Source of the DNA: Parahaliea mediterranea
GTDB lineage: Bacteria > Pseudomonadota > Gammaproteobacteria > Pseudomonadales > Halieaceae
Direction: 5' to 3'
Length of the DNA: 64,000 bases
Assembly (NCBI RefSeq): GCF_003402235.1
Contig: NZ_QEWO01000003.1
Span: forward strand, 124,001 to 188,000
Of this stretch, positions 37,187 to 58,265 are shown in pieces. Position numbers and translations under genes: made by a program. Every line of letters begins with the position of its first letter. Within the stretch, counting starts at the first letter, position 1. Under the pieces are notes generated by a model. The model was not told the origin of the DNA. It did not search any database and saw only the letters and a program-made list of their open reading frames with translations.

Positions 37187-37312
37187 TTACCGGCGTTTCC
37201 TCACCCATTCACATGAATCCCCCCGGCCCCGGGTGCACTACCCTGTGCCCACCTACCCGCCACCGTGCCCGCTGTGCGCCGCCAAGGTTGCCCGGGCGAA
37301 AGGAGAACGGAT

Positions 37313-37795
37313 ATGCCAGGCAGTGACAGTGCAGACCATACACTCAGAAGCCACAATGCCGACCTGTTCAGAACGATGCTGGCGTACCTGGGCCAGCGCG
37401 ACTATGCCAACTGCGCGCGCTATCTGGCGCAGGATGTTTACGCCGACTGGCCCTATCGGCCGATGCCGACGATTCCGGACAGGGTCACCGGCCGGGATAA
37501 TCTGATTGGCTATTTTCGCGGCGAGGTGGACGGCTCGGACAATGAGGGGCTGGATGAATTTACGCCCCTGGACTATGAGATAGAAACCCTGCACGAACTG
37601 CTGGACCCCAATGTGCTGATTGCCGAGTATGCCTCCCACGCCCGGCACATTCCCTCGGGCAAGCCCTACAACAACCGCTATGTGGGCATTGTCCGGTTTA
37701 AAGACGACGAGATTGTCTACTGGCGGGAGTACGTGAACCCGGCGGTGATCTACGAAATTTACGACCTGCTGAAACTACCCACTGACACGCAATGA
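37313..37795 (+). CDS. SnoaL-like/NTF2-fold protein 1
   Basis: The start at ATG 37313 behind AGGAG gives 160 residues. It has a SnoaL/NTF2-like cone fold: an N-terminal helix (LFRTMLAYLGQRDYANCARYLAQDV), a middle with TGRDNLIGYFRGEV, and terminal strands YVGIVRFKDDEIVYWREYVNP. This family includes isomerases, dehydratases and cyclases of steroids and polyketides, but catalytic residues cannot be assigned by eye. It is eight bases before the zinc alcohol dehydrogenase, with which it must be cotranscribed. A weak match to the island operator lies about 100 bases upstream. Confidence 0.8.
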   Translation: MPGSDSADHTLRSHNADLFRTMLAYLGQRDYANCARYLAQDVYADWPYRPMPTIPDRVTGRDNLIGYFRGEVDGSDNEGLDEFTPLDYEIETLHELLDPNVLIAEYASHARHIPSGKPYNNRYVGIVRFKDDEIVYWREYVNPAVIYEIYDLLKLPTDTQ

Positions 37796-37803
37796 GGTGA
37801 CCT

Positions 37804-38847
37804 GTGCGCTCTGCCAATTTTATTGACCCCGGCCAGATCGAGATGCGCGACGACGCATCGGCACCCACCCCGGCAGCGGGCGAGGTGATTGTGGCCGTCC
37901 AGAGCTGCGGCATTTGCGGCTCGGACCTGCATATGTACCGCAACAACAGCTCCCGCGATGTACTGGTGCGCGCCACCCCCGAAGGCTATGAGATTCCCGG
38001 TCACGAATTCGCCGGTTGCATATCGGCCATTGGCGACGGGGTGAGCGGCTGGGCGGTGGGTGACCGGGTGGTGGGCGTGACCGGCCAGGGCGGCGGCATG
38101 GCGGATTTTGTCGCGGTGCCAGACAACCCCTTCCAGCTGGTGGCCATGCCCGACGGGGTGAGTTTTCAGGAGGCCGCCACCACCGAGCCGCTGGCCGATG
38201 GCCTGCAGATGGTGCGCAAGGCTGCGGCCGAGCCGGGCGAGAATGTGCTGGTGTTCGGGGTGGGCATTATCGGCCTGGGTGTGATTCAGGCCTATCGGGC
38301 AGCCGGCGCCGAGCTTGGCGCGCTGATCGCCGTAGACGTGCACGATGCCCGCCTGGAAAAGGCCCTGGCGGTGGGCGCCACCCATGCGGTCAATGCGCGC
38401 GATGGCGACCTTGTGGCGCAGATCCAGGCCATTACCGGGGTGGAGAACGACTGGCGCGGAACCTCCGCCAACATCCAGGTGGTGATCGACTGCGCCGGCT
38501 ACATCAAGCACATGCCCGGCCCGCCCCCGCTGGAGACCGCCCTGCAGCTGGTGGCCTGCGAGAACGGCCGGATTGTGTGCTTTGGCGCCTACGAGGACAA
38601 AATGCTGATCGACATGATGCCGCTGATCAGGAAGCAGCCGGTCATCATGGGGTCCAATGGCTATGCCGCCGAAGACCTCACCCACGCCCTGCAGTTGATG
38701 CGCGATGGCAGCGTTGACCGGCTGGGGCTGATTTCCCACTCCTTCCCCCTGGAGCAGATAGACGCCGCCTTTGCCACCCAGGCCACACCGCAGGCGGTGA
38801 AGGTGATGATCGACATTCGCTGCGCTGTTGATCGGCCGCGCCGGTGA
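37804..38847 (+). CDS. Zinc-binding alcohol dehydrogenase lacking structural zinc loop
   Basis: GTG start behind GAGGTG, 347 residues. The catalytic zinc ligands are seen in CGICGSDLHMY and GHEFAG, and the Rossmann motif in VFGVGIIGLGVIQ. The four-Cys structural zinc lobe that usually follows GDRV is absent: the sequence runs GDRVVGVTGQGGGMADFV. It resembles threonine dehydrogenase/sorbitol-dehydrogenase-like MDRs and should oxidise a secondary alcohol with NAD(P). It is coupled to the SnoaL-like gene and converges on the PQQ dehydrogenase gene. Confidence 0.88.
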   Translation: MRSANFIDPGQIEMRDDASAPTPAAGEVIVAVQSCGICGSDLHMYRNNSSRDVLVRATPEGYEIPGHEFAGCISAIGDGVSGWAVGDRVVGVTGQGGGMADFVAVPDNPFQLVAMPDGVSFQEAATTEPLADGLQMVRKAAAEPGENVLVFGVGIIGLGVIQAYRAAGAELGALIAVDVHDARLEKALAVGATHAVNARDGDLVAQIQAITGVENDWRGTSANIQVVIDCAGYIKHMPGPPPLETALQLVACENGRIVCFGAYEDKMLIDMMPLIRKQPVIMGSNGYAAEDLTHALQLMRDGSVDRLGLISHSFPLEQIDAAFATQATPQAVKVMIDIRCAVDRPRR

Positions 38848-41811: not shown

Positions 41812-43080
41812 TCAGTCCAGCAGCCAGTCCGGGTCGGCCAACCTCTCCGACAAGGTGTTCAGGAAGCGGATGGCATGGCCGCCGTCCAGCGCCCGGTGGT
41901 CGAAGGTCAGGGACGGGCGCAGCACGGTGCGCACGGCCACCCGGCAATTGCCGTCGTCGTCGATCTCCGCCACCGGCACCTGGCGGGTGGCGGGCAGGCC
42001 CAGCAGGGCCACCTGCGGCGGGTTGAGGATGGCCTCGGCGCGCAGCACGGGGCCCAGGGCACCCGGGTTGGATAGGGTAAAGGTGCCACCCTCCAGTTCC
42101 TCGCGGTCCAGGCTGCCCCCCAGCGCCCGGGCCGTTAGCCCCTTGATGGCGGTGTTGAGTTCATTCACGTCGAGCCGCTGTGCATCCTTGACCACCGGCA
42201 CTACCAGGCCGTCGGGGGTGTCCACCGCAATGCCCAGGTTAACGGTTTGCCACAGGTAGCGTTCCTTTTCGCCGTAGGTGGCGTTCAGCTCGGGGTGGTC
42301 CGCCAGGGCCTTGCACACCGCCGCGGCGATGCAGCTGAACAGGGAGATGCCCGCCTCGCCCCTGGCCACCTGGGTGCGGCTCAGTTCATGGCGCACCTCA
42401 ATCAGGTGTTCAATGGCAATCTCCATGTCGGCGGTGAGCTGGGGCACCTCCCGCGCCACCGCACTCAGGCGCCGGGCAATGGTTTGCCGGCGCAGGCTGT
42501 TGGCCACGGTTTTGCACGGCACAGCCTCGTAACCGGCGGGCAGGGGCGATTTGGCATCGGCCGCCGCAACACGCGCGAGAATATCCTCCTTGGTGACCCG
42601 CCCCGCCGGGCCGCTGCCCGCTACCTCTGTCAGGTTAATACCGTGTTCCGCTGCCAGCTTGCGCACCAGCGGCGAGTGTCGCGCGCCGCCAGCTGCACCC
42701 GCCGCGGTGTTCGCCGGGGTTGCAGCGCTGTTGTCTGCGGTACTGCCTGCGCTGGGGCTAGCATCAGGGATTGCATCAGCGTCTGCACCGACAGCATTCA
42801 GGGCCTGCAGCGCGGCCTGCAGGGCCTCGCCGGGCACTTCGCCATCGGCGAACAGGCCCACCACGTCGCCCACCTTGAAGTCCTCGTCTTCCTCGGCAAG
42901 CTGCTTCAGCAGATAGCCGTCGCAGTCGGCATCCACCTCGGTGAGGGTTTTGTCGGTCTCCACCTCGTAGAGGGTCTGCCCCGCTGTGAAGTAGGCGTTC
43001 TCGGCAACATGCCAGGCCACCAGGCGGGCGTTTTCCACCGAGCCCATGTGGGGAATTCGAAGTTGTTTGACGTCACTCAT
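41812..43080 (-). CDS. 2-oxoacid dehydrogenase E2 (dihydrolipoamide acyltransferase)
   Basis: This 422-residue protein has an N-terminal lipoyl domain with the modified Lys44 in EVETDKTLTEV, an Ala-rich linker, a peripheral subunit-binding domain (SPLVRKLAAEHGINL) and the acyltransferase domain ending in TFDHRALDGGHAIRFL (HxxxDG catalytic motif). It takes the acyl group from E1 and passes it to CoA. The E1 genes lie directly upstream. No E3 (dihydrolipoamide dehydrogenase) gene is present, so that subunit must come from elsewhere in the genome. Confidence 0.94.
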   Translation of the reverse strand: MSDVKQLRIPHMGSVENARLVAWHVAENAYFTAGQTLYEVETDKTLTEVDADCDGYLLKQLAEEDEDFKVGDVVGLFADGEVPGEALQAALQALNAVGADADAIPDASPSAGSTADNSAATPANTAAGAAGGARHSPLVRKLAAEHGINLTEVAGSGPAGRVTKEDILARVAAADAKSPLPAGYEAVPCKTVANSLRRQTIARRLSAVAREVPQLTADMEIAIEHLIEVRHELSRTQVARGEAGISLFSCIAAAVCKALADHPELNATYGEKERYLWQTVNLGIAVDTPDGLVVPVVKDAQRLDVNELNTAIKGLTARALGGSLDREELEGGTFTLSNPGALGPVLRAEAILNPPQVALLGLPATRQVPVAEIDDDGNCRVAVRTVLRPSLTFDHRALDGGHAIRFLNTLSERLADPDWLLD

Positions 43081-43098: not shown

Positions 43099-44103
43099 TT
43101 AACCAAGACACAGCTGCCGCCCGGCAGCCACGATTTCCGCCACCGAGGGAATGCACAGGGCTTCAAGCGCGCCATGCTGGGGCAGCGGCACATCCTTGCC
43201 GGCCACCCGCAACACCGGTGACTCCAGGTCGAAGAAGGCCTGCTCCTGAATGTGGGCGGCAATTTCGGCGCCGGGCCCGGCGGTTTTCATCGCCTCGTGC
43301 ACGACCATCGCGCGGTTGGTGCGCCGCACCGAATCCAGAATCAGCGGCCAGTCGATGGGCACCAGGCTGCGCAGGTCGATGACCTCCAGGTCGATGCCCT
43401 CCCCCGCCAGTTGCCCCGCCGCCTGCAGCGACGGCTCCACCATCGAGCCGTAGGTGAGCAGCGTGGCGCTGCTCCCCGGGCGACGCACGCAGGCCTTGCC
43501 GATGGGCACAAAATGGTCGCTGCCGGTGGGCACATCGCCGCGCTGGAAGCTCAGGGTATTCACACTGTGAAACAGCACCGGGTTGGGCTCGCGCAGCGCG
43601 GCGCACATCAGGCCCTTGGCATCGGCGGCAGTGGAGGGCACCACTACCTTCAGGCCGGGAAAGTGCATGCCGAGCACCTCGGTACAACTGGAATGTTCCG
43701 GGCCGGCGCCGTTCATGGTGCCAATGGGGAAGATAATGACGGCGGTCATCGGCACGTTCAGCCCGTGCATGTAACGCCACTTGGCCAGCTTGTGGAAAAT
43801 CTCGTCGCCGGCTATCAGGGCAAAGTCACCAAAGCCCATGTTGATCACCGGCTTCATGCCCGCGATGGCGGCGCCAGCCGCCAGCCCTGCCTCAAAGGCC
43901 TCGGAGATATTGCTGTCGATGACGCGATCGGTGCCGAACTCATCGGCCAGCCCCTTCTCGGCGCCAAACCAGCCGCCCGTGGCTACCCCCTGGCCGAGCA
44001 CGAAAATGCTGTCGTCTTCGCGCATGGCCTCCACCAGGGCCTGGCCCATGGCGGCGTTGTAGGTGATGGATTGGGTATCAGCCATAGTTTGGGTATCAGC
44101 CAT
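43099..44103 (-). CDS. 2-oxoacid dehydrogenase E1 beta
   Basis: This 334-residue E1 beta subunit has the expected N-terminal SITYNAAMGQALVEAMRED, SEAFEAGLAAGAAIAG and C-terminal transketolase-like domain (SLVPIDWPLILDSVRRTNRAM). With E1 alpha it decarboxylates a 2-oxoacid using ThDP. The start at ATG 44103 has an AAGGA site; its first six codons are an exact 18-bp duplicate of the next six (MADTQT then MADTQS), so a second ATG at 44085 is also available. It overlaps the E1 alpha stop by eight bases. Confidence 0.93.
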   Translation of the reverse strand: MADTQTMADTQSITYNAAMGQALVEAMREDDSIFVLGQGVATGGWFGAEKGLADEFGTDRVIDSNISEAFEAGLAAGAAIAGMKPVINMGFGDFALIAGDEIFHKLAKWRYMHGLNVPMTAVIIFPIGTMNGAGPEHSSCTEVLGMHFPGLKVVVPSTAADAKGLMCAALREPNPVLFHSVNTLSFQRGDVPTGSDHFVPIGKACVRRPGSSATLLTYGSMVEPSLQAAGQLAGEGIDLEVIDLRSLVPIDWPLILDSVRRTNRAMVVHEAMKTAGPGAEIAAHIQEQAFFDLESPVLRVAGKDVPLPQHGALEALCIPSVAEIVAAGRQLCLG

Positions 44104-45073
44104 AGTAGAGATCCTTGAAAATAGTGTCTGGCGCAGGGTCGTCTTCGGCCATGGCGGCCTGATAGGCCGAGGCCACCTCGGCCTCGGCCTGCGCCCACAG
44201 GGCGCTGGCCTCATCCTCATCCAGCCGGGCCGCCAGCAGCGCCAGGGGGTCGCGATAGGCATCCAGGTAATCCGGTGCGCGGTAGTGCTGGGGGTCACCG
44301 GCGTAGTGGCCGTGCTTGCGAAACACCTTGGCCTCGATGAGGGTTGGCCCCTCACCCGCCCTGGCCCGCTCGATGGCTTCGGCGGTGGCGGTGTACACCG
44401 CCTGCGCGTCCTGGCCGTCCACCACCACACCGGGAATGTGGTAGCCGGCGGCGTAGTCGGCAATGTTCTCGGTGGGGCTCACCTGCTTGAGTGGGGTGCC
44501 CACCAGCCACTCGTTGTTTTCGCAGAAGTAAATCAGCGGCAGCTTCCAGGCGGCGGCGTGTACCAGGGTTTCGTGAAAGGTGCCGCGGGCGGCGGTGCCA
44601 TCGCCAAAGTTAGCCAGCGCCACCTGGTCGGTGCCGCGCTGCTTGGCGGCCAGGGCCGCGCCAGCGGCCAGCGGGTATACGCTGCCCAGCGTTGCCCCCT
44701 CGCCCATCACGCCAATGGCGTAGTCCACCCAGTGGGGCACACCGCCGCCCTTGCCCCCGGTGGAGCCGGAAGGCTTGCCCAGCAGGTCGCCCAGTATCGG
44801 GCCCGGCGCCATGCCCTTGCCAATGGCCCAGGAACAGCCCCGCCCCTGGTAGAACAGGTAGTCGTCACGGCGCATGGCGGCGCTGGCGCCGATGCCGGCG
44901 GCCTCCTGCCCTTCGCCGGGGTGCCACCAGCCGCTGAAGCGGTTGTTGCGAACGTGCTGGGCCATGCACTGTTCAATGGCGCGGGTGAGCGCCATGCGCT
45001 GGTACATCCGCTTGAGCAGGTCCGAATCCGGCGCCGGCCCGCCGGGGTTTTTGCCAGGGTGCTGATCGTTCAT
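44096..45073 (-). CDS. 2-oxoacid dehydrogenase E1 alpha
   Basis: The start at ATG 45073 behind AAGGA gives 325 residues. The ThDP site is NFGDGTAARGTFHETL followed by FCENNEW, closest to acetoin and branched-chain 2-oxoacid dehydrogenases, and YRMALTRAIEQ-like and GWWHPGEGQEAAG segments are in place. It heads the E1alpha-E1beta-E2-Coq4-PQQ operon. The true 2-oxoacid is unknown; an acetoin-type or branched-chain-type substrate is plausible. Its promoter region carries a copy of the island operator (45166-45181). Confidence 0.92.
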   Translation of the reverse strand: MNDQHPGKNPGGPAPDSDLLKRMYQRMALTRAIEQCMAQHVRNNRFSGWWHPGEGQEAAGIGASAAMRRDDYLFYQGRGCSWAIGKGMAPGPILGDLLGKPSGSTGGKGGGVPHWVDYAIGVMGEGATLGSVYPLAAGAALAAKQRGTDQVALANFGDGTAARGTFHETLVHAAAWKLPLIYFCENNEWLVGTPLKQVSPTENIADYAAGYHIPGVVVDGQDAQAVYTATAEAIERARAGEGPTLIEAKVFRKHGHYAGDPQHYRAPDYLDAYRDPLALLAARLDEDEASALWAQAEAEVASAYQAAMAEDDPAPDTIFKDLYYG

Positions 45074-45165
45074 GGCTGTCCTTTTTATGTTGCGGTGGTG
45101 GTGCGCTGGCGGTGCGTAACCAGGCACTGTGCAGCACAGCCTATGCCCCACCCGCAAGCCCCGCC

Positions 45166-45181
45166 TCATTCGATGAAATGA
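45166..45181 (-). promoter_or_regulatory. Island operator, facing E1 alpha operon
   Basis: TCATTC-GATG-AAATGA matches the palindrome TCATTC-N4-GAATGA at 11 of 12 positions. It lies about 100 bases before the E1 alpha ATG; a weak -10 (TAGGCT, 45143-45138) starts about 30 bp from its centre. Confidence 0.65.
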
Positions 45182-45214
45182 ATTCCCCGGCAGCCGGCGC
45201 CGCCTGTCGAATGT

Positions 45215-45230
45215 TCACCCGATCGAATGA
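45215..45230 (+). promoter_or_regulatory. Island operator, facing TonB receptor
   Basis: TCACCC-GATC-GAATGA matches at 10 of 12 positions. A good -10 box, TATGAT at 45252-45257, begins 29.5 bp from the centre, placing the site near -41.5 of the receptor promoter. Confidence 0.68.
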
Positions 45231-45308
45231 GCTGTTGTTGTACCCCGCCGCTATGATGGCCTGCGAGTTAGAACATTGGCCTTATAACGATTACTCAGGA
45301 GTCAATTC

Positions 45309-47666
45309 ATGCTGCGGATATCCCAGCCCTGCCTCACCTTTGTTCCCACGCCTGCCCACGCGCTTGCCCTCGCCATGGCCCCGCTGCTTGCCACAGCGCC
45401 GCTGCCCGCGGCCAGCCAGGACAGCCGGGCCTCGGCCCTGGAAGAGGTGGTGGTAACCGCGCGCCGGGTGGAAGAGAGCCTGCAGGAAGTGCCGGTGGCG
45501 GTCACGGCGCTGACCAAGAACACCCTGGAAGCGCTGCGCATCGACAGCTTTCTGACCGTGGGGCAGACCGTGCCCAACGTGTACATCCAGAAACAGGGCG
45601 GCAGCCCCACCGCGCCGCAGATGAACATACGCGGGGTGTCCAACGGCTCGCTGAACATGCAGGTGGACTCCGGCATCGGGCTGTATGTGGATGGCGTGTA
45701 CGTGGGGCGCCCGGGCGCCTCGGCCTTTGACATGGCCGACCTGGAGCGGGTGGAAGTGATGCGCGGCCCCCAGGGCACGCTGTTCGGGCGCAACTCCACT
45801 GGTGGCGCCATCAACCTGATTACCGCCAAGCCCACTGGCGACGCTGACTTTGGCCTGGACTTTACCGCCGGCAATTTCAACCACCGGGAATACCGCGCGC
45901 GCATTGACACCGCGCAGTGGAAGGGCTTTTCGGCCCGGCTGGTAGCCGGCCATGTGGAATACCAGGGCGACGTGGACAACCTGTCACGCCCGCGCAGCTA
46001 CACCTTCGACGCGCCCTTTGGCACCTACACCAGCAACCGCCGGGGTGGCGACAGCGACACCGACAATGCCTATGTGGCCATCAACTACGCGGGCATAGAG
46101 CGCCTGACGGTGGACTACAAGTTCGACTACAGCAACTGGAAGGGCAGCATGAACTACCGGCAGATGGGGAGCTTCGGCCCCTGCGTCGACTTCGACGCCA
46201 CGCCGGGCCAGTGCATTATCGGCAACGGCCTGGTGGATCCGGTGCGCCCCTTCAGCCTGAGCTTCGACTACCTCGATGAACTGGCCGCGCCACTGGAATC
46301 CGGCGCCGAGCAAATTACCCGGGGGCACTCACTCACCGCTGAGTTCGAGATCAGCGACAGCCTGGCCATCCGCTATATCGGCGGCTACCGCGAATACCAG
46401 CTGGACAGTGGGATGAACCAGGTGTGGGGAGCCAGCGAATATGTGGATACGGCGGGCATCATCGGCGGCGTACCGGGAGGCCTTTACGCCCCGCTGCTGG
46501 CGTTGCGCAAGGAAGATCAGGACCAGTTCTCCAATGAGTTGCAGCTGATCGGCAACAGCGAGCATATCGAGTGGATTATCGGCGCCTTCCAGTTCGAGGA
46601 GGAGGGCGCGCTTAACAACCCGATATTCCTCTCCCAAACCTTCTCCGACGGGCAGTACATTCCCATCAGCGTTGCGGCCTTCCACTACTTTGTTGGCCAG
46701 AACGTCGAGGTTACCAACGAATCGCTGGCCGCCTACGCCCACCTGACCTGGCACCTGGGCAACTTCGACCTGAGCGGCGGCATCCGCTACACCGAGGACG
46801 ACCGCGAGGAGTACATCATCGCTGCGGGCCTGTACGGCGCGGTGCTGCCTGGCAACCAGTCCTTCGACTACAGCGACGACCACCTGGACTACGACGCCTC
46901 GCTGACCTACAACTTCACCGACAGCGCCAACGTCTACGCCAAATACGCCACTGGCTATGTGTCCGGTGGCACCCTCGGGGGCAACGCCTTCGACCAGGAC
47001 GAAATGACCCTGTATGAACTGGGCATGAAGTCCGACTTCTTCGATCAAACCCTGCGTTTCAACGCCGCCGTGTTCCGCCAGGAACGCACCGACGTGCAGA
47101 TAGAGGGCTTTACCAGCATCGGTTATTTCATGGGCCGCGGCGAGGAGATCAACGCCGATGGCGTCGAGCTGGAAGCCACCTGGATTCCCGTCACCGGACT
47201 GTCGCTGAACGCCTCCTGGGGTTATACGGATGTGGACAGCTCCGGCGATCTGCGCACCTACCAGCCGGAAAACACCGCCTATTTTGGCGCCCAGTACGAC
47301 TTCCCGGATCTCGCCAACGGCATCCAGACCACGGTGCGCGTGGACTGGAGCTGGCGCGACGAAGTGCATCGCCTGGCCTGTATCGCAGGGCAGGACCAGG
47401 TGCCCGCCACCGATATCTGCGCCGGCACGCCGGACTATGCCCTGGATGAGGCGGCAACCATTGGCGAGGTGGACATGGTCAGCGCCAACCTGGTGTTTGC
47501 CAATATTCCGCTGGGCCGTGACACCCGCCTGAAGGCCACCCTGTGGGGCCGCAACCTGCTGGATGAAGACGAAATCGAATTCAACTTCACCCTGGGCGGG
47601 CCAACCATTGCCAACACCTTCGTGCGCCCGCGCACCTATGGGGTGGATGTGGCCGTTGATTTCTGA
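45309..47666 (+). CDS. TonB-dependent outer membrane receptor, paralogue 2
   Basis: 785 residues, ATG behind AGGAG. It has a signal-like N-terminus, a TonB-box phrase LEEVVVTARRVEES, the plug motif VEVMRGPQGTLFGRNS, and a barrel closing with TYGVDVAVDF. It imports the substrate of the surrounding pathway through the outer membrane. It is divergent from the 2-oxoacid dehydrogenase operon, and the gap has two operators with the receptor -10 at the right distance. A strong terminator follows. It is of the same subtype as the receptor at 5604-8048 but clearly diverged. Confidence 0.94.
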   Translation: MLRISQPCLTFVPTPAHALALAMAPLLATAPLPAASQDSRASALEEVVVTARRVEESLQEVPVAVTALTKNTLEALRIDSFLTVGQTVPNVYIQKQGGSPTAPQMNIRGVSNGSLNMQVDSGIGLYVDGVYVGRPGASAFDMADLERVEVMRGPQGTLFGRNSTGGAINLITAKPTGDADFGLDFTAGNFNHREYRARIDTAQWKGFSARLVAGHVEYQGDVDNLSRPRSYTFDAPFGTYTSNRRGGDSDTDNAYVAINYAGIERLTVDYKFDYSNWKGSMNYRQMGSFGPCVDFDATPGQCIIGNGLVDPVRPFSLSFDYLDELAAPLESGAEQITRGHSLTAEFEISDSLAIRYIGGYREYQLDSGMNQVWGASEYVDTAGIIGGVPGGLYAPLLALRKEDQDQFSNELQLIGNSEHIEWIIGAFQFEEEGALNNPIFLSQTFSDGQYIPISVAAFHYFVGQNVEVTNESLAAYAHLTWHLGNFDLSGGIRYTEDDREEYIIAAGLYGAVLPGNQSFDYSDDHLDYDASLTYNFTDSANVYAKYATGYVSGGTLGGNAFDQDEMTLYELGMKSDFFDQTLRFNAAVFRQERTDVQIEGFTSIGYFMGRGEEINADGVELEATWIPVTGLSLNASWGYTDVDSSGDLRTYQPENTAYFGAQYDFPDLANGIQTTVRVDWSWRDEVHRLACIAGQDQVPATDICAGTPDYALDEAATIGEVDMVSANLVFANIPLGRDTRLKATLWGRNLLDEDEIEFNFTLGGPTIANTFVRPRTYGVDVAVDF

Positions 47667-47691
47667 ACCGTGACTGCACGTCGGTCCATTC

Positions 47692-47717
47692 ACGGGCGGG
47701 ATTCCGCCCGTTTTTTT
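47692..47717 (+). terminator. Intrinsic terminator after TonB receptor
   Basis: A perfect 8-bp stem ACGGGCGG/CCGCCCGT with a 4-base loop is followed by six more T residues. It ends the receptor transcript and insulates the LuxR-type gene. Confidence 0.9.
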
Positions 47718-47753
47718 ATGTGTTCACAACCAACATGGCCCCGCCACCGGCGG

Positions 47754-47782
47754 CTGTTTCCGAACAGGCATTGGCGTATACT
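47754..47782 (+). promoter_or_regulatory. Promoter of LuxR-type gene with inverted repeat
   Basis: TATACT (47777-47782) is a good -10. An inverted repeat CTGTT-TCCG-AACAG (47754-47767) occupies the -35 position. A regulator could bind there; the start codon is 57 bases downstream. Confidence 0.45.
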
Positions 47783-47838
47783 GAAGCGCGGCCCTGGCTG
47801 GTCGACCCATGAGCCTCCACCGCAAGAGGTACATAATA

Positions 47839-48990
47839 ATGAGACTGGGCACTACCCTTAAAAAGTATGACGAGCTGCTGCAGCTCGCCTATGACGGTTC
47901 CAGCGGCCCGGAGCCCTGGAAGGCCTTCGTCGAGTGCTTCCGCGACGTACTGGAAGCACGGGACGCCTCCATCGTGATCCAGCAGGTTCCCGGCGACAAT
48001 GCCCTGCCGCGGGAAAATCGCTACCTGCTGGTAACTTCCGACACCTCGCCCCACCTCACGCGGGAATACCTCGACTCGGTGATGGAAGCCAACATCGTCA
48101 TGGCCCTGCCCCAGCCCCAACCGACGACGATTCGCGACATCCTGCCAGATGAGCTGTTCCTTGGCTCGCGGCTGTACCAGGACTTTCTCGAACCGGTGGA
48201 TATCAAGCACCTGATGGGCATGGATATCTATCGCTCCGATTCGCTGTGCATCAAGCTGTCGGTGGAGCGCAGTGGCAGCCAGGAGGCCTTCTCGGAGGAC
48301 GACAAGGCCATCTTTCGCATGATCGCCCCCCACCTGCAACGGGCGCTGCGCTTTCGCTCGGAAGTGGACGGTGGCCTGCAGCTGCAAACCTTTTACGAGC
48401 ACATTCTCGACAAAATGGAAGTGGGCGTGCTGCTGCTGGATGAGCAGGGCAAAGTCATATCCAGCAACGGCTCGGCGCGGGCATTGCTGAAGCAGGGCAG
48501 CTGCCTGAAAATCGCCAATGGCCGGCTGGTGACTGTCGAACCTTCGGATTGCGGGCGCCTGCGGGACGCCTTCAACCTCGCCGCCTCGGCCAGCAAAACC
48601 CAATGTCGGGCCCAGCCGGGCGTGTGTATCGGCCTGCGCAATGGCGACGATGGCAGCGTGATCGAAGCAGTGGTAAAACCCTACCTCGGCGAGGAATTTG
48701 CCACCCGGGGCAACCGGCCCAGCGTGGCGGTGTTTTTACATGCCAACCAGCCCAGCGGCGCTCCGGTGGACAGCGAAATCCTGACCGATGTGTACGGCTT
48801 TACCCGCAAGGAAGCGGCCGTTGCCGCCCTGATCGGCGCAGGCCACAGCCTGAACCAGGTGGCCGACGACCTCTCGGTCAGCGTCAACACGGTCAAAACC
48901 CACCTGCGCGGCATCTACGAAAAAACCGGCTTTCACCGCCAATCGCAGGTGGTGGCACTGCTCAGCAACAGTTCGGTGAAGCTGCTGTAG
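47839..48990 (+). CDS. LuxR-type transcriptional regulator with PAS-like domain
   Basis: I start at ATG 47839 behind AAGAGG, giving 383 residues; an ATG 30 bases upstream has no ribosome site. The first 170 residues are an unassigned sensing part, residues 185-230 look like a PAS segment (MEVGVLLLDEQGKVISSNGS), and the last 65 are a LuxR/NarL helix-turn-helix (FTRKEAAVAALIGAGHSLNQVADDL, SVNTVKTHLRGIYEK). No autoinducer-binding domain is recognisable. It is embedded in the island, so it is the best candidate for the factor that binds TCATTC-N4-GAATGA at its promoters. Confidence 0.9.
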   Translation: MRLGTTLKKYDELLQLAYDGSSGPEPWKAFVECFRDVLEARDASIVIQQVPGDNALPRENRYLLVTSDTSPHLTREYLDSVMEANIVMALPQPQPTTIRDILPDELFLGSRLYQDFLEPVDIKHLMGMDIYRSDSLCIKLSVERSGSQEAFSEDDKAIFRMIAPHLQRALRFRSEVDGGLQLQTFYEHILDKMEVGVLLLDEQGKVISSNGSARALLKQGSCLKIANGRLVTVEPSDCGRLRDAFNLAASASKTQCRAQPGVCIGLRNGDDGSVIEAVVKPYLGEEFATRGNRPSVAVFLHANQPSGAPVDSEILTDVYGFTRKEAAVAALIGAGHSLNQVADDLSVSVNTVKTHLRGIYEKTGFHRQSQVVALLSNSSVKLL

Positions 48991-49009
48991 CCGCCGGGGC
49001 GGCGGGCCG

Positions 49010-49040
49010 CATTGCCTCACCCTAGAACTGTGAGGCAATG
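49010..49040. terminator. Hairpin between LuxR gene and luciferase-like gene
   Basis: CATTGCCTCAC and GTGAGGCAATG make an 11-bp perfect stem over a 9-base loop that includes the stop codon of the minus-strand gene. It separates two convergent genes; there is no T run. Confidence 0.5.
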
Positions 49041-49882
49041 ATGGCGCCGATCTCATCAATCATAGGGAACAGGTGCTCGGCCTGCCCCCACTTGTCGATC
49101 TCAACCCCCACCACCACGCGCTCGATGCCTAAGTCGCGGTAGCGCAGCAGGTCGTCCCGGCTGGGGCGCTGCATGCACTGAAGGGTGATGGGCGCATCCT
49201 CCAGGGTACGGCCGAAGTCGGCCAGCAAGGCGCGGTAGCCGGCAACGCTTTCGGCCACGTCGGGCAGTGCGATGTCCACCGGCAGCCAGCCGTCCGCCCA
49301 CTGGGCACTGTGGCGCACGCCCAGCGCGCCCATGGCGCCAAACAGTATTGGCGGCCCGCCGGCCTGGGCCGGCTTGGGGTAGCTCCACACCGGCTCGAAC
49401 TGTATGTACTCGCCGGTAAAGCCGGCGGCTTCCTGTGTCCACAGTTGTCGCAGGGCGGCGACGGTTTCACGCATCACGCCGTAGCGCTTGCCCCAGGGCG
49501 CCAGGTTGACGTTCTCGAACTCCTCCCGGTTCCAGCCCACGCCGGTGCCAATCAACACCCGGCCGCCCGACAGGGTATCCAGGGTGGCGATGGACTTGGC
49601 CAGGGAAAATACATCCCGCTCCATTAACAGGGCGATACCGGTGGCAAGGCGCAGCTCGGAGGTGACAGCGGCGGCCGACATCAGCGAAACGTAGGGGTCG
49701 CGCATGTGCTTGTAGGGCTCCGGCATCTCGCCCCCGGCGGGGTAGGCCGATTGCCGGCTGACGGGAATGTGGCTGTGCTCGCCCATCCACAGCGATTCAA
49801 ACCCGCGCGCTTCAAGGGCCACCGCCAGTTCTGCCGGCAGGGGGTCGAAGTGCGTATTCATGGAGCTGAAACCGATTTTCAT
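49022..49882 (-). CDS. LLM-class (luciferase-like) flavin-dependent oxidoreductase 1
   Basis: 286 residues of the bacterial luciferase-like family: MKIGFSSMNTHFDPLPAE, LRLATGIALLMERDVFSLAKS, LSGGRVLIGTGVGWNREEF and GGPPILFGAMG are typical strands and loops. These enzymes use FMNH2 or F420 to hydroxylate, cleave or reduce hydrophobic substrates; F420 versus FMN cannot be settled here. It follows the second luciferase-like gene (49974-50846) by 91 bases and is probably in its operon. The two proteins are diverged, so they may have different substrates or be components of one step. Confidence 0.9.
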   Translation of the reverse strand: MKIGFSSMNTHFDPLPAELAVALEARGFESLWMGEHSHIPVSRQSAYPAGGEMPEPYKHMRDPYVSLMSAAAVTSELRLATGIALLMERDVFSLAKSIATLDTLSGGRVLIGTGVGWNREEFENVNLAPWGKRYGVMRETVAALRQLWTQEAAGFTGEYIQFEPVWSYPKPAQAGGPPILFGAMGALGVRHSAQWADGWLPVDIALPDVAESVAGYRALLADFGRTLEDAPITLQCMQRPSRDDLLRYRDLGIERVVVGVEIDKWGQAEHLFPMIDEIGAIIASQF

Positions 49883-49973
49883 GCCGCGGTATCCTCAAGC
49901 TGGGTGAAGGTTTTTTGTGAAGAGCTATCTACGACGGCGCTACCTATGAAGGGGCTTGGGCGATACTGCGCAG

Positions 49974-50846
49974 CTAGCACTGGCTGATGACTTCATCGGC
50001 AAAGCGCTTGATGCTGTCTATCGCCACCGCCAGCGGCGGCGTCATCGGGTGGCCATGCAGCACCCAGGGCATGGTGGTGGCCACCGACACGCCCATTGCC
50101 GCCATGGCGCGGTAACCAGCGCTGTCGTAGGCATCGGTGCAGCCAAAGGCCATGATGCGGTAATCGTCCCGCCCGGCGGTGCCCGCCTGTTCGCGCTGGG
50201 CATTGAGCTTGCCGATCAAACCTTCCAGTTCCGCCAGCGAGTGCAAATCGGCAATCCAGCCGTCGTTGTGCGCCGCCCGGCGCAGCGCCGGGGCGGAAAA
50301 GCCGCCCACGTAAATGGGAATCTGGCGCCGTGGTGGTGGCACCTGCCGCATGGCATCCAGTTGGTAGTGCTCACCCTGGAAGCTCACCTGCTCGCCGCTC
50401 CACAGCAGGCGCAGAATCTCGATCATTTCATCCGCCCGCTTGCCCCGCGCCGCAAAGGGCTGGCCCGCGGCGGCAAACTCCTCCGGCATCCAGCCCATGC
50501 CAATCCCCAGGCCCACGCGCTCGTTGGAAAACAGGTCCGCCGTGGCCAGTATCTTGGCCACCTGCACCGGGTTGCGGGTTGGCAGTACAAAAACGTTGGT
50601 ATAGAACGCGATGCGACGGGTCTGGGCCGCCATCGCGGTAATGGCAACCCAGGGGTCCGGGAAGGGGTCGAACTCGCCAAAGCGCGGCACACCGTCGTCG
50701 GTGTAGGGGTACGGCACCGAAAAGGCCCCCGGGTAAATCAGGTGGTCCGCAAGAGACACCGCGCCAAAGCCGTTTTCTTCGGCGGCCTGGGCCAGCGGCA
50801 GATAGTTCTCAAGGGGATGAAAAGCAATAGACAGGCCGAATTCCAT
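49974..50846 (-). CDS. LLM-class (luciferase-like) flavin-dependent oxidoreductase 2
   Basis: The start at ATG 50846 behind GGGAG gives 290 residues. Family features are MEFGLSIAFHPLENYLPLA, RRIAFYTNVFVLPTRNPVQVAK, NERVGLGIGMGWMPEEF and RRQIPIYVGGFS. It should act as a flavin- or F420-dependent monooxygenase or reductase. It is the first gene of a two-gene unit with luciferase-like protein 1 and is divergent from a SnoaL-like gene; the gap holds two operators. Confidence 0.91.
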   Translation of the reverse strand: MEFGLSIAFHPLENYLPLAQAAEENGFGAVSLADHLIYPGAFSVPYPYTDDGVPRFGEFDPFPDPWVAITAMAAQTRRIAFYTNVFVLPTRNPVQVAKILATADLFSNERVGLGIGMGWMPEEFAAAGQPFAARGKRADEMIEILRLLWSGEQVSFQGEHYQLDAMRQVPPPRRQIPIYVGGFSAPALRRAAHNDGWIADLHSLAELEGLIGKLNAQREQAGTAGRDDYRIMAFGCTDAYDSAGYRAMAAMGVSVATTMPWVLHGHPMTPPLAVAIDSIKRFADEVISQC

Positions 50847-50907
50847 GGTGGCGCACTCCCGTACAGTCGTTGGGCAGGCAGTGTCCCACCCGCTGGGCCG
50901 GCCGGCT

Positions 50908-50923
50908 TCATTTGCTCGAATGA
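50908..50923 (-). promoter_or_regulatory. Island operator, facing luciferase-like genes
   Basis: TCATTT-GCTC-GAATGA matches at 11 of 12 positions, extended by flanking bases to TTCATTT-GCTC-GAATGAA. Its centre is 69.5 bases before the ATG; the -10 is weak (GACACT). Confidence 0.65.
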
Positions 50924-50955
50924 AGAATGCTGTGCGGTGCTTCATTGATGAGGAT

Positions 50956-50971
50956 TCATCCATGAGGGTGA
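50956..50971 (+). promoter_or_regulatory. Island operator, facing SnoaL-like gene
   Basis: TCATCC-ATGA-GGGTGA matches at 9 of 12 positions. The -10 TACAAT (50993-50998) begins exactly 29.5 bp from the centre, and the ATG is 68.5 bases away, mirroring the opposite site. Confidence 0.6.
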
Positions 50972-51031
50972 GGCCGCGGCGCCTTCCGCACCTACAATCA
51001 AGCGACTGTTACAAGCCACTGGACGATTACC

Positions 51032-51529
51032 ATGTCAGCCGATACAACCAGCACACTGTCAACGCCGCCATCCACCCTGGACGAGTTGCTCAACCTGGAG
51101 GCGATCAAGGCCCTGAAATACCGCTACATCCGCTGCATGACGCTGAGCCTGTGGGACGAGTTGGAGACGCTGCTGACCGCAGACGCCTACAGCGCCTACT
51201 CCGACGGCAAATACGTGTTCGAGGGCCGGGACGCGCTAATGGGCTTTTTGCGCAACCAGCACGGTGGCGACGAGCCCACCTCGCTGGGCTACTGGCAGGT
51301 GGGCATGCCGGAAATCACCCTGCTGTCGGCCACCACGGCGCGCGGCATCTGGGGCATGTACCACTACTACCTGGACAAAACCGTCGACCAGCAGCTGGAA
51401 ATGTTCTGCTACTACGAGGACGAGTACCGCAAGGAAGACGGCACCTGGCGCATCTGCCGCACCGGCTACCAGCGGGTGATGGAGCAGTCGCTGGCGCGCA
51501 AGGGAGCCTATTCGCTGGAGGTTGGCTGA
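51032..51529 (+). CDS. SnoaL-like/NTF2-fold protein 2
   Basis: This 165-residue protein with the SnoaL_4-like layout (LEAIKALKYRYIRCMTLSLWDELETLLT, GRDALMGFLRNQ, GIWGMYHYYLDK, DEYRKEDGTWRICRTGYQRV) is like BaiE-type dehydratases and other small steroid or terpenoid isomerases. The Tyr-Arg-Tyr pattern in KYRYIRCM and a His in YHYY are plausible catalytic residues, but this is a guess. It has its own operator and a close -10 box, and it ends six bases before the stop of the carboxylesterase gene (convergent). Confidence 0.82.
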   Translation: MSADTTSTLSTPPSTLDELLNLEAIKALKYRYIRCMTLSLWDELETLLTADAYSAYSDGKYVFEGRDALMGFLRNQHGGDEPTSLGYWQVGMPEITLLSATTARGIWGMYHYYLDKTVDQQLEMFCYYEDEYRKEDGTWRICRTGYQRVMEQSLARKGAYSLEVG

Positions 51530-51534
51530 GCCAT

Positions 51535-53274
51535 CTACGACGGCCCGGCCACACCGGTCCAGGCCATCAGCCGCCACAGCCAGCGCAGCACACCGATGCG
51601 CGGCACCGGTGCCAACGCCGCACCGTCATTCTCAAACGCCATCAACCGGGGCTGGCTGGCGTCAAAGGCCGGCCAGTCGGGCAGGCCCGGGCCGCCGGAG
51701 CGCCCGTTGTGTGCAAAGCCGGCCCAGTAATCCGCCACGGTGCTGGCCAGTGCGGCATCGCGCGCGGGCACCTCATCGCCAAGCCCCGGGAATTGGGCGA
51801 GGGACTCAAACACATAGAACAGCTCCATGCCGTGGGGAGCGCCCGCGGCATAGCCCCGCAGCGCTTCTGGCACGGCATTGAAGCGGTAGAGGTAGGCATT
51901 GGCAGTTGCTGCATTGGTGCTTTTGTTTGCATTTGTGTCGGCTCCGTCATGCGCCCATAACGCTGCCAGGTGCAGGGTGCCCGCCCCCAGGAACAGGTCA
52001 CTGGCCAGCAGGTCGCGGGGCGCGGCGGCGCCGGCATTCTCGCCTGGCTTCTGGCCGGGCGTCTCGTCAGTCTTCTCGTCGGGGTTCTCGTCACGATAGC
52101 CCAGAGCCAGCAGGGCGGAGACCGCCGCCCCGGCCACGCCCCGGGACGGTACCTCCAGCAGCGGCAGCAGCGATGGCCGCTCGAGCGCAAACTGCCACAC
52201 CTGCGCTTCCAGCGTGTTGCTGCCAAGCAGTATCGGCGGGCGCTTAGCCGGTGGCAGCGCGCGCAGGTAAGCCAGCGGGTGCTCGGGCAGAACGGTGTCA
52301 TCCAGGCTGGGGGCAGTGGTGACGGCAATCTCCATCACCGCTTCGTAGGACGGATGCGCCGGTGCCACCGCATCAAGCGGCAGATTGCGCAGGGCCTGTG
52401 CCACGCCGCTATCGCTGCCCGACAGACCCTGCGCCGCGGCAAAGGCCAACCCCAGGGCCTCGGCTGAGGGCAGCTCATCCCGGTCTTCGCCCCCGTCTTC
52501 GTTCCCACTAGCGCTCTGTCGCAGCCGGCGCATGGGCCGCAAAATCGCCCCGGACTGCACAATCAACCGATTGAACAGTCCTTCTGCAGCGGGCGACGCC
52601 AGCAGCGCAAGGGCGGCGATGCCACCGGCGGATTCGCCAAACAGGGTGACGTTGTGCGGGTCGCCGCCAAAGGCGGCGATATGATCCTGCACCCAGCGCA
52701 GGGCGGCGAGCTGATCCAGCAGGGCAAAATTGGCCGTGGCCTGCCCCAGGGCCGGGTGGGCAAAAAAGCCCAGGCGCCCCAGGCGATAGTTCAGGCTGAC
52801 CAGAATCACCCCGCGCCGGGCCAGGCCCCGGCCATCAAACACTGCATCGCTGCCGGCACCGGCAATAAACCCGCCGCCGTGCAGCCACACCATCACCGGC
52901 GCCGACGCGCCGGGCGCAAGTGCCGCTGGCGCCCACACGTTCAGGTACAGGCAGTCTTCGCTGAAGGCCTCGCGCACCGCCAGTTGGGTTTCGGTTTCCC
53001 GGGATTGCGGGCAGGCCGGGCCGAAGTGGCGGGCACTGCGAATGCCCTGCCAGGCAACAGGCGCCGCCGGCGGCCGCCAGCGCCTCTCGCCCACTGGCGG
53101 CGCCGCATAGGGCAGGCCAAAAAAGGTGCGCACCCCGTCACGGGTGCTACCGTGCACGCGCCCCGAGGGCAGCTGCACCACATCTTCGTTCTGGCCTTGC
53201 ACGGCGGCGCTCGCCGGCAGGGTCAACAACGCCAGTGCCATGCCGGCGGCACCCAGCAAAGTGGGCTTGGGCAT
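51535..53274 (-). CDS. Secreted type B carboxylesterase
   Basis: 579 residues with a signal peptide (LLGAAGMALALLTLPASAA). It has the oxyanion HGGG (132-135), the nucleophile Ser215 in FGESAGG, EDCLYLNVW and NYRLGRLGFF, and the later catalytic GSNTLEAQVW (Glu) and GAPHGMELFYVF (His). It should cleave a carboxylic ester, probably in the periplasm or outer surface. An unusual charged insertion with repeated DE-K units (RDENPDEKTDETPGQK) interrupts the lid region. It is divergent from the ThDP enzyme with two operators between them. Confidence 0.93.
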   Translation of the reverse strand: MPKPTLLGAAGMALALLTLPASAAVQGQNEDVVQLPSGRVHGSTRDGVRTFFGLPYAAPPVGERRWRPPAAPVAWQGIRSARHFGPACPQSRETETQLAVREAFSEDCLYLNVWAPAALAPGASAPVMVWLHGGGFIAGAGSDAVFDGRGLARRGVILVSLNYRLGRLGFFAHPALGQATANFALLDQLAALRWVQDHIAAFGGDPHNVTLFGESAGGIAALALLASPAAEGLFNRLIVQSGAILRPMRRLRQSASGNEDGGEDRDELPSAEALGLAFAAAQGLSGSDSGVAQALRNLPLDAVAPAHPSYEAVMEIAVTTAPSLDDTVLPEHPLAYLRALPPAKRPPILLGSNTLEAQVWQFALERPSLLPLLEVPSRGVAGAAVSALLALGYRDENPDEKTDETPGQKPGENAGAAAPRDLLASDLFLGAGTLHLAALWAHDGADTNANKSTNAATANAYLYRFNAVPEALRGYAAGAPHGMELFYVFESLAQFPGLGDEVPARDAALASTVADYWAGFAHNGRSGGPGLPDWPAFDASQPRLMAFENDGAALAPVPRIGVLRWLWRLMAWTGVAGPS

Positions 53275-53330
53275 CCTGTCGTCTCCGTATCTGTGGAATC
53301 GTCAACATACCCCCACCAAAGGTTTGCACC

Positions 53331-53346
53331 TCATTCCTTTGAATGA
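53331..53346 (-). promoter_or_regulatory. Island operator, facing carboxylesterase
   Basis: TCATTC-CTTT-GAATGA is a perfect match. On the minus strand the -10 TATGTT (53309-53304) begins 29.5 bp from the centre, placing the site near -41.5; the ATG is 64.5 bases from the centre. Confidence 0.75.
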
Positions 53347-53381
53347 CGCGCGAGCACGCGCCCGCCCCTGGGCTGGCAATT

Positions 53382-53397
53382 TCATTCGAAGGAATGA
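53382..53397 (+). promoter_or_regulatory. Island operator, facing ThDP enzyme
   Basis: TCATTC-GAAG-GAATGA is a perfect match, centred 51 bp from the other copy. The -10 TAGACT (53419-53424) begins 29.5 bp from the centre, and the ATG is 65.5 bases away. Confidence 0.75.
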
Positions 53398-53454
53398 TGC
53401 CGGCCCATCCCGCGCCAATAGACTGCAAGACTCACTGGCATACTGGAGCGGCTT

Positions 53455-55197
53455 ATGAGTACACAGGCACTGGGGGAGCGCATCGCGGATCTGCTGCTGG
53501 GCGAGGGCGTGGACCGTTTTTTCTCGCTGCCGGAGGTCACCTTCGGCAAATTGCACGACGCCCTGGACCGCCGAGGGGCGCCGCTGATCGCACCCCACCA
53601 CGAAGCGGCGGCGGGCTATATGGCCGAGGCCTACGCGCAGCTCACCGGGCGCATGGCGGTGGTTGGCGGCAGCGTGGGGCCGGGCGCGATTAATCTCTAC
53701 CCGGTGATCGCCAACTCCTGGAGCGAGAACCTGCCCATACTCTACCTGGGCTCGGAGCGCACCGTGCTGGCACGCAACTCACCGCGCCGCAGCCAGTTCC
53801 AGTGCCCACCCAACCTTGAGGTGGTAAAGCCCATCACCAAATACTGCGCCATGATCGAAAACCCGCTGGAGGCCGACGCCATTTTCCAGGAGGCCTTTCG
53901 GCAACTGCACACCGGCACCCCCGGCCCGGTGTACATCGGGCTGCCCTTCGACCTGCTGCTGGAAGAGCACGACTTTGGGCCGCTGGCCCCGCCGCAGCGC
54001 TATCGTCCGGCGAGCTTCGTCGACACCGTCTGCGACGCCGACCTCGCCGCGCTGGCCGAAGAGCTGGTGGCCTCGCCGCTGCCGCTGATTCTGGCCGGGG
54101 CCGGGCTGCGCCTGTCGCGGATGCAAGCAGCCCTGGAACAGCTGGCGCGGGCGCTGGGGTGCCCGGTCATCACCACCCCCGCCGGGCGCGGCGTGCTGCC
54201 AGACACCCACCCCCAGCTGTTTGACCTGGGCGTGGCGCCGGGCTCGGACATTGCCGCCCAGGCAGACACAGTGCTGGTGCTGGGCTCATCCATCAGCGAG
54301 CAGGTGGCCTTTGGTGGCCAGCCCTACGCCCGCAGCCAGCAGGGCTTTCCGAACTTTTTTGGCGATCCCGCCACACAGCGCTGGATACACATTGATCGCG
54401 ACCCGGCGGCCCTCGGCCGCAACCGGCCGGTGGATGTGGCCCTGGCCGGCGATTTGCGCCGGGTAATGCCGCGCCTGGTGGATGCAGTGCAGCGCGCCGG
54501 CGCCGAGCCCGAGCGCAACGCCAAACGCCTTGGCACCTGGCAACAAGCGCGCGAGGCCCACTACCGTTCGCTCTACAGCGCCACCACCGACAGCCAGCCC
54601 ATACACCCGGGCCGCGCCATCGTGGAAGTGCAGCGGGCCCTGCCGGAGCAGGCCATCATCGTGCGCGATGGCGGCGCTTTCAAAATCTGGGCCATGAATC
54701 TACTGCACCATCCCATCAGCGAGAACCTGGCCGCCATCAAGCAGGGCATGCTGGGCAGCGGTGTGCCCTACGGGCTGGGCGCGGCGCTGGCCGCCCGCGA
54801 CGACGGGCGCCGCGTCTGTGTGATCACCGGCGATGGCGCCTTTGGCTTTTACCCCATGGAGCTGGAGACCGCCGTGCGCCACAACCTGCCGGTGGTGATT
54901 GTGGTGGGCTACGACGCGGGCTGGTCGCTGGAGGTGCCCTACTACATGCAGGTGTGCGGGCGCACCTTTGAAGTGGACCACGAGTTTGTACGCCTGGATG
55001 AAATGGCCCGCACCCTCGGCGCCCACGGTGAGTTCTGCACGCGCAGCGACGAAATTGGCCCGGCTATGCAACGCGCGCTGGCGGCGCAAAAGCCGGCACT
55101 GGTGCAGATTGTGATTGACCGGGACATCAACGCCTACCAGATGCCCAACAATGGCGTGTGGTCCAGCTGGCATGCGGACAAGGCGGTGTATCAATAG
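53455..55197 (+). CDS. ThDP-dependent enzyme, acetolactate synthase-like superfamily
   Basis: This 580-residue three-domain ThDP enzyme has catalytic Glu50 (APHHEAAAGYMAEAYAQLTG region), a middle Rossmann-like domain, and a C-terminal ThDP site starting at GDG 459-461. The usual second metal-binding Asn of the GDG-x-NN motif appears to be Asp (VVGYDAGWS). It does not match benzoylformate decarboxylase, acetolactate synthase or 2-hydroxyacyl-CoA lyase clearly enough to choose. It likely makes or breaks a C-C bond next to a carbonyl in the island pathway. Confidence 0.88.
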   Translation: MSTQALGERIADLLLGEGVDRFFSLPEVTFGKLHDALDRRGAPLIAPHHEAAAGYMAEAYAQLTGRMAVVGGSVGPGAINLYPVIANSWSENLPILYLGSERTVLARNSPRRSQFQCPPNLEVVKPITKYCAMIENPLEADAIFQEAFRQLHTGTPGPVYIGLPFDLLLEEHDFGPLAPPQRYRPASFVDTVCDADLAALAEELVASPLPLILAGAGLRLSRMQAALEQLARALGCPVITTPAGRGVLPDTHPQLFDLGVAPGSDIAAQADTVLVLGSSISEQVAFGGQPYARSQQGFPNFFGDPATQRWIHIDRDPAALGRNRPVDVALAGDLRRVMPRLVDAVQRAGAEPERNAKRLGTWQQAREAHYRSLYSATTDSQPIHPGRAIVEVQRALPEQAIIVRDGGAFKIWAMNLLHHPISENLAAIKQGMLGSGVPYGLGAALAARDDGRRVCVITGDGAFGFYPMELETAVRHNLPVVIVVGYDAGWSLEVPYYMQVCGRTFEVDHEFVRLDEMARTLGAHGEFCTRSDEIGPAMQRALAAQKPALVQIVIDRDINAYQMPNNGVWSSWHADKAVYQ

Positions 55198-57658: not shown

Positions 57659-58265
57659 TGGGCGCGCTACCCGATTCCGACAGGCGCCGTAGCAGCCAGG
57701 CCTTAGCCATCACCCAGTCGCGCTTTACCGTCGCCGGTGAAACGGACAGGTAGGCCGCGCTCTCATCCACGGACAGACCCGAAAAATAGCGCAGCTCCAC
57801 CAGATGTGCCTGGCGCGGGTAGACCGCCGACAGGTCATCCAGGGCGCTGTCCAGATCAATGAGTTCGGCAGCTCGTGCAGGGGTCATGGCCTGGGCTGGA
57901 ATCGGCGCATCGGGATCCGCGTCCAGGGACATCACTTCGCGGCGCCGATCGCGTTTGTCCGCCAGGCGTCGCCGCGCGGCGTCGAGGAGAATACGACGCA
58001 CCACGGTCGCGGTCACCGCGAAAAAATGTTGCCGATCCTGCCAGTTGGTTTCGCATTGCTGCGACAGGCGCAGATAGGCTTCGTTCACCAGATCCGTCGC
58101 CTGGAGCGTGATGGATCCCGCTTCACCATTGAGCCCGGTGCGTGCAATGCGCCGTAGCTCCTCATAGATGAGCGGCAATACTTCGTGTTCCGCCGCCTGA
58201 TCCCCAGAGGACCAGGCACGGAGCAGAGTGGTCACATCACGCGACTTGTTCCCGGGCGCTGCCAT
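57648..58265 (-). CDS. ECF RNA polymerase sigma factor paired with kinase
   Basis: 205 residues: sigma region 2 (VNEAYLRLSQQCETNWQDRQHFFAVTATVVRRILLDAARRR) and region 4 (LRYFSGLSVDESAAYLSVSPATVKRDWVMAKAWL) are clear. It belongs to the ECF group whose genes sit beside a Ser/Thr kinase with TPRs rather than beside a membrane anti-sigma factor. It is divergent from a beta-lactamase-like lipoprotein gene and may regulate it and the anchor-U protein that follows. Confidence 0.93.
   Translation of the reverse strand: MAAPGNKSRDVTTLLRAWSSGDQAAEHEVLPLIYEELRRIARTGLNGEAGSITLQATDLVNEAYLRLSQQCETNWQDRQHFFAVTATVVRRILLDAARRRLADKRDRRREVMSLDADPDAPIPAQAMTPARAAELIDLDSALDDLSAVYPRQAHLVELRYFSGLSVDESAAYLSVSPATVKRDWVMAKAWLLRRLSESGSAPIGP

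Follow-up and report, generated by a model that had tools for sequence, protein, structure and literature searches.

A LuxR-type regulator predicted to activate an uptake-and-catabolism gene cluster through a conserved palindromic operator in Parahaliea mediterranea

Introduction

In Comamonas testosteroni, the LuxR-type regulator TeiR (TesR) is required to induce the steroid catabolic gene cluster, according to excerpts of two sources (PMC6678751, PMC6895838). The review account ascribes to TeiR a membrane location and kinase activity (PMC6678751/PMC6895838). The lux box of V. fischeri is 20 bp long and centred at -42.5 (PMC3376562). The locus analyzed here, from the 5.09-Mb genome of Parahaliea mediterranea (G000), resembles the TeiR/TesR system in combining a LuxR-type regulator with a catabolic cluster, a likeness of description rather than of sequence. 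It differs in that no 3-ketosteroid dehydrogenase is named among the genes annotated here, by annotation as distinct from a dedicated steroid-gene search. As with V. fischeri LuxR, a GerE-domain protein accompanies an inverted repeat near -42; however, the operator is a 16-bp element of another sequence, and Pfam (E ≤ 0.001) gave no match to an autoinducer-binding domain. Among openly licensed literature, searched by titles and the starts of abstracts, no account of this operator or of the cluster came up, though one may exist. We consider it very likely, from sequence and comparison, that the palindromes described below would be operators of a LuxR-type protein (47839-48990), which would activate uptake and catabolic genes as a class II activator.

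Coordinates without a contig prefix refer to the window, the 64,000-nucleotide stretch of contig C23 that was analyzed. Genes were called with a simple in-house caller, not a standard one. G134 and G135 denote congeners, and f9 another family.

Results

Three divergent gaps of the window each carry two copies of a palindrome, and all six copies lie where the original prediction had placed them, with 1 (45166), 2 (45215), 1 (50908), 3 (50956), 0 (53331), and 0 (53382) mismatches in 12 positions; the copy at 50956 is the weakest of the six. The four -10 boxes named in advance (TATGAT, TACAAT, TATGTT, and TAGACT) were likewise recovered, each 29.5 bp from the centre of the facing palindrome, and the boxes of the remaining two promoters, TAGGCT (45138-45143) and GACACT (50880-50885), lie one base further from the centre. 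The putative operators are:

45166..45181, minus strand: operator 1a, facing 2-oxoacid dehydrogenase E1-alpha (minus); -10 TAGGCT at 45138-45143 (minus); G134 counterpart C17:482476
45215..45230, plus strand: operator 1b, facing the TonB receptor; -10 TATGAT at 45252-45257; in G134, C17:482557 corresponds to it, and TAAGAT follows there with an identical 21-bp offset
50908..50923, minus strand: operator 2a, facing the LLM oxidoreductase (minus); weak -10 GACACT at 50880-50885 (minus); G134 counterpart C17:488154
50956..50971, plus strand: operator 2b, facing the SnoaL/BaiE-like gene; -10 TACAAT at 50993-50998; G134 counterpart C17:488188, with TACAAT at offset 23
53331..53346, minus strand: operator 3a, facing the carboxylesterase (minus); -10 TATGTT at 53304-53309 (minus)
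53382..53397, plus strand: operator 3b, facing the ThDP enzyme; -10 TAGACT at 53419-53424

Loose matching by itself would be an insufficient case, since the enrichment at ≤3 mismatches was mild (20 matches in the window against a shuffle mean of 11.83, with 4 of 100 shuffles equally high). The genes concerned, with the regulator, are:

37265..38847, plus strand: SnoaL_2 protein and zinc alcohol dehydrogenase
41812..43080, minus strand: dihydrolipoyl acyltransferase E2
43099..44463, minus strand: E1-beta; the ORF overlaps E1-alpha, and the start is probably near 44.1 kb
44096..45073, minus strand: 2-oxoacid dehydrogenase E1-alpha
45309..47666, plus strand: TonB-dependent receptor
47839..48990, plus strand: LuxR-type regulator, 383 aa, with a C-terminal GerE domain; predicted activator at the operators
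49022..49882, minus strand: LLM-class oxidoreductase, second gene
49974..50846, minus strand: LLM-class oxidoreductase
51032..51529, plus strand: SnoaL_4 protein related to the bile-acid 7-alpha-dehydratase BaiE
51535..53274, minus strand: carboxylesterase family protein
53455..55197, plus strand: ThDP enzyme similar to 2-hydroxyacyl-CoA lyases and cyclohexane-1,2-dione hydrolase

The regulon had been predicted to comprise three gaps. All three do hold paired sites, and the motif is better written TCAYYY-N4-RRRTGA. An extended scan with a matrix from seven sites over C23:104001-208000 gave a larger set, with two more divergent gaps past the window end and one single site:

C23:191693 and 191732: paired sites 39 bp apart, between a TonB receptor and an MFS carrier
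C23:194690 and 194726: paired sites 36 bp apart, between an SDR and an FMN oxidoreductase
37201..37216, plus strand: single operator upstream of the SnoaL_2 and zinc-ADH genes; -10 TACCCT at 37239-37244; a weaker match, scoring 13.3 and 15.7 in two matrix scans

The expected spacing of 48–51 bp between paired centres described the window (49, 48, and 51 bp) but failed as a general rule: it was ruled out by the next two gaps (39 and 36 bp) and by G134, where pairs stand 81, 34, and 38 bp apart. Pair spacing is thus not the conserved quantity; what is kept is the distance from site to -10 box. TAnnnT begins 21–23 bp past the site in 9 of 10 promoters of the five P. mediterranea gaps, the LLM promoter (operator 2a) being the sole one lacking it. 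Among 39 site orientations from seven genomes, hand-chosen as facing a gene, TAnnnT occurred at offsets 21–24 in 22, against five in total at the remaining 41 offsets; the share was 15/18 in G000 and G134, and 7/21 in f9, where the mean -10 score peaks at offset 22 (-1.3, against a mean over offsets of -6.4, sd 1.4). Separate inspection of sites outside this set (those of G319, G116, and G485, the single site at window position 37201, and 471345 and 472239 in G134) showed TAnnnT at 21–22 bp in some (for example G319:4771, TATGTT; G485:218410, TAAGAT; G116:36611, TAGAAT) and none in others.

With the -10 hexamer taken as -12 to -7, offsets of 21–23 bp correspond to a site centred at -41.5 to -43.5. 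This bears out the predicted class II position near -41.5, with starts inferred from the -10 boxes at the usual distance. No -35-like hexamer was seen in the 19 promoters of G000 and G134, whose best -35 match averaged 1.9 of 6 positions against 2.2 at random, a poor or absent element as in class II promoters. A centre at -41.5 to -43.5 together with the missing -35 box fits class II activation.

A motif scan of the whole genome had been named in advance as a check. At ≤1 mismatch, the genome contained 10 sites (reversed control, 0), five in the divergent gaps of the island and five under ORFs: one (window position 20544) inside a MaoC gene, and four under ORFs of >100 codons, which is ORF cover and not proof of genes. 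The palindrome alone lacks specificity. A composite pattern of palindrome, 21–23 bp, and TAnnnT gave 10 matches in G000, nine of them in the five gaps. It was also matched in G134 (seven, six in the cluster), G135 (one), G147 (two, one in the cluster), G275 (two, one in the cluster), G189 (three, two in the cluster), and G116 (one, none in the cluster), and the reversed control gave 0 in all seven genomes; the pattern was drawn after the G000 and G134 sites had been seen, so that the counts in these two are partly circular. Of the exact TCAYYCN4GRRTGA matches, 5/12 in G000, 4/10 in G134, and 4/17 in three f9 genomes fell within the clusters. A paired-site scan of genome contigs returned, among the matches listed, contigs of unrelated phyla (judged by title alone) that look like chance or repeats, and it speaks neither for nor against the reading given here.

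The GerE domain of the regulator (PF00196, residues 321–373, E 5.6e-9, 35.9 bits, cut-off 23.5) places a helix-turn-helix at its C-terminus, as in LuxR/GerE proteins, and was the single Pfam match at E ≤ 0.001; a diverged autoinducer-binding N-terminal domain may escape this search. That the N-terminal part holds a GAF/PAS domain is only an impression, and the single-sequence AlphaFold model was of low quality (mean pLDDT 37.4). Reading of the sequence, rather than a scan, showed a GC-rich inverted repeat with T residues after it at 47666-47720, in the gap that separates the TonB receptor from the regulator gene; the regulator may thus have its own promoter.

The regulator has an orthologue in G134 (85%), whose cluster bears the sites, and none in G135, where the best match is 28%. 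At ≤1 mismatch, six of nine G134 sites fall in C17:477-492 kb, whereas the ten in G135 are scattered over six contigs; across three congeners the site cluster is present where the orthologue is and missing where it is not. A match at 1e-45 was present in 14 of 390 genomes from the order (G000 among them); among 369 of the class, at 1e-48, G000 alone had one.

Six homologues from f9 (36–40% identity) lie in similar clusters with such sites. They adjoin LLM and SnoaL homologues, with an MFS gene in 5/6 and SDRs and an FMN oxidoreductase in the longer loci. A matrix from the ten G000 sites found 16 intergenic matches in these six loci, against ~0.1 summed from permuted matrices, and two further matches scored as coding, both in G319; 0/200 permutations per locus reached the count, except in G189 (1/200). 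All the f9 genomes are of a single genus, with some rows near-identical, and are not independent. Beyond these six loci, the locus of a 32% homologue (G485) had four intergenic matches (0/200 permutations), and that of a 33% homologue (G116) one, which was not significant (21/200). G116 has no site scoring ≥14 within 10 kb of the regulator homologue; a site scoring 20.3 lies ~13 kb off, before an FMN oxidoreductase, and weaker palindromes at 36611 and 30141, followed by TAGAAT and TAAGAA at 21 bp, are suggestive only.

A tree placed ten motif-associated homologues on one side of a branch supported at 100/99 and 32 others on the opposite side; the motif label was hand-assigned on regions that were larger for clade members than for the majority of the rest, the paralogue G232 was left unlabelled, and the program flagged long branches, G116 and G485 included. 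The ten share the recognition helix VS[VI]NTV[KR]TH[LV]RGIY. With equal flanks of ±1.5 kb (a few shortened by contig ends), a site scoring ≥14 occurred in 4/10 clade loci and 0/32 others. Widening the regions to at most 20 kb gave 32 such sites in 162 kb around the ten clade members, against 6 in 400 kb around 20 paralogues; three clade regions were shorter, six of the 32 sites belong to G000, and G116 contributed none. Good sites also lie in some paralogue regions (G134:C10:158471, scoring 20.5, and G000:C28:37714, scoring 17.1), and G232 has one site scoring 20.3 in 35 kb (7/200 permutations, not significant), so the motif may extend beyond the clade.

At G134:C10:158442-158486, a good operator and a -10 box lie just downstream of a LuxR-type paralogue with a partly similar recognition helix. 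The composite pattern also occurs at G000:C28:116826 and G135:C17:505968, with similar spacer ends in the two congeners; the ORF downstream in G000 resembles a KshA-type Rieske oxygenase by eye, and these two sites may belong to a LuxR-type paralogue.

Which protein would bind the palindromes was weighed against other candidates. An IclR-type protein is encoded downstream of the FMN-oxidoreductase gene (C23:197560-198720), within the cluster of both G000 and G134, and IclR proteins bind palindromic sites of similar length. It had, however, no match (E ≤ 1e-10) in the whole genomes of G147, G275, and G189, all three from f9 and all retaining the sites, and on this ground it was rejected as the binder. 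Its relatives in G116 (57%) and G485 (52%) sit away from the LuxR-type cluster, no ≤1-mismatch site lies near the 51–57% relatives in G000, G134, and G135, and a stricter pattern found none on the G116 contig; binding by IclR is very improbable. We rate slightly lower still the chance that the sites answer to an unlinked regulator, with the LuxR-type gene a mere passenger of the cluster. The genome does encode five further LuxR-type paralogues (six matches including the regulator itself), one of them near a similar site, but the orthologue and the site cluster are present or absent together in three congeners, and the LuxR-type gene is found in 6/6 f9 loci, which were fetched through that gene. 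Pfam searches of ten unassigned neighbours in five loci added one regulator, a TetR protein in G485.

The LuxR-type protein might instead bind and repress, blocking RNA polymerase at the -35 region. The sites overlap this region, and a requirement for repression by LuxR has been described for V. fischeri (PMC5601948). Yet the 19 promoters show no -35-like hexamer, and the distance from site to -10 box is narrow, which direct activation requires and occlusion does not; we regard repression as unlikely, if less so than a different binder. The comparison thus favours the LuxR-type protein as predicted binder and activator, in line with the original prediction: orthologue and sites co-occur in congeners, the f9 clusters carry both, three f9 genomes searched whole gave no IclR match, and the position fits class II.

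Discussion

The sites, their positions, their conservation, and their co-occurrence with a LuxR-type regulator outline a simple switch, for which we infer binding and activation rather than repression. A dimer of the LuxR-type protein would occupy TCAYYY-N4-RRRTGA, centred 41.5 to 43.5 bp upstream of the inferred starts, where it would replace the -35 element and directly activate RNA polymerase. Each promoter of the five divergent gaps would have its own operator, and the SnoaL_2/ADH genes a single one. One inducer, if it exists as we suppose, would probably be an imported compound or an early metabolite, and would jointly switch on the TonB receptors for outer-membrane uptake, the MFS carrier, and the catabolic gene set.

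More tentatively, and with considerable doubt, the regulator subfamily may share an operator code, TCA-N10-TGA with a -10 box 21–23 bp on, such that islands of several families would be wired alike and genes would join by gaining a site. In some relatives, one symmetric palindrome could occupy class II positions for both promoters of a divergent pair, so that a single dimer could drive the two. A candidate is G134:C17:477609, which is 21 bp from both TAGTCT and CAGAAT.

The genes under the sites would fit, perhaps, an alicyclic substrate undergoing dehydration, enone reduction, and C-C cleavage. The best solved relative of the ThDP enzyme is BbmA (E 2e-52), followed by 2-hydroxyacyl-CoA-lyase types and cyclohexane-1,2-dione hydrolase (4e-47), and that of the FMN oxidoreductase, by sequence, is NCR. 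A PQQ dehydrogenase in the neighbourhood, nearest to the glucose/quinate type at a score below its cut-off, faces a site in G134. A search of 50 kb of G134 recovered neither the carboxylesterase gene nor the ThDP gene, so gap 3 lacks a counterpart there. Other genes of the window were noted in passing. A serine/threonine kinase with TPR repeats adjoins an ECF-type sigma factor (PF07638) at 55322-58265 (minus strand), neither of which was found in the same 50 kb of G134. A 2,677-codon ORF with DUF11-type domains (27965-35998) perhaps encodes a large surface or secreted protein, and a beta-lactamase-like protein with an ORF12_N domain is encoded at 58428-60107.

The analysis provides a predicted regulator, operator, and set of target promoters for an uncharacterised uptake-and-catabolism cluster, a prediction specific enough to be tested on a single protein and a single DNA fragment. 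Further members could be sought by means of the operator, and knowing the inducer would give a lead on the substrate.

Resemblance to the bai system lies in the enzymes alone. The regulated SnoaL protein is similar to BaiE (E 2e-21), and the FMN oxidoreductase to BaiCD (E 7e-122), although its 408 bits against a cut-off of 825 mean that it is not a member. To our knowledge, the bai genes include none for the TonB receptors, LLM oxidoreductases, ThDP enzyme, or oxoacid dehydrogenase seen here. Activation of catabolic clusters by LuxR-type proteins and a lux box at -42.5 are already known; the switch predicted here is a further example of this familiar kind, and one unusually well supported by comparison for a prediction drawn from sequence.
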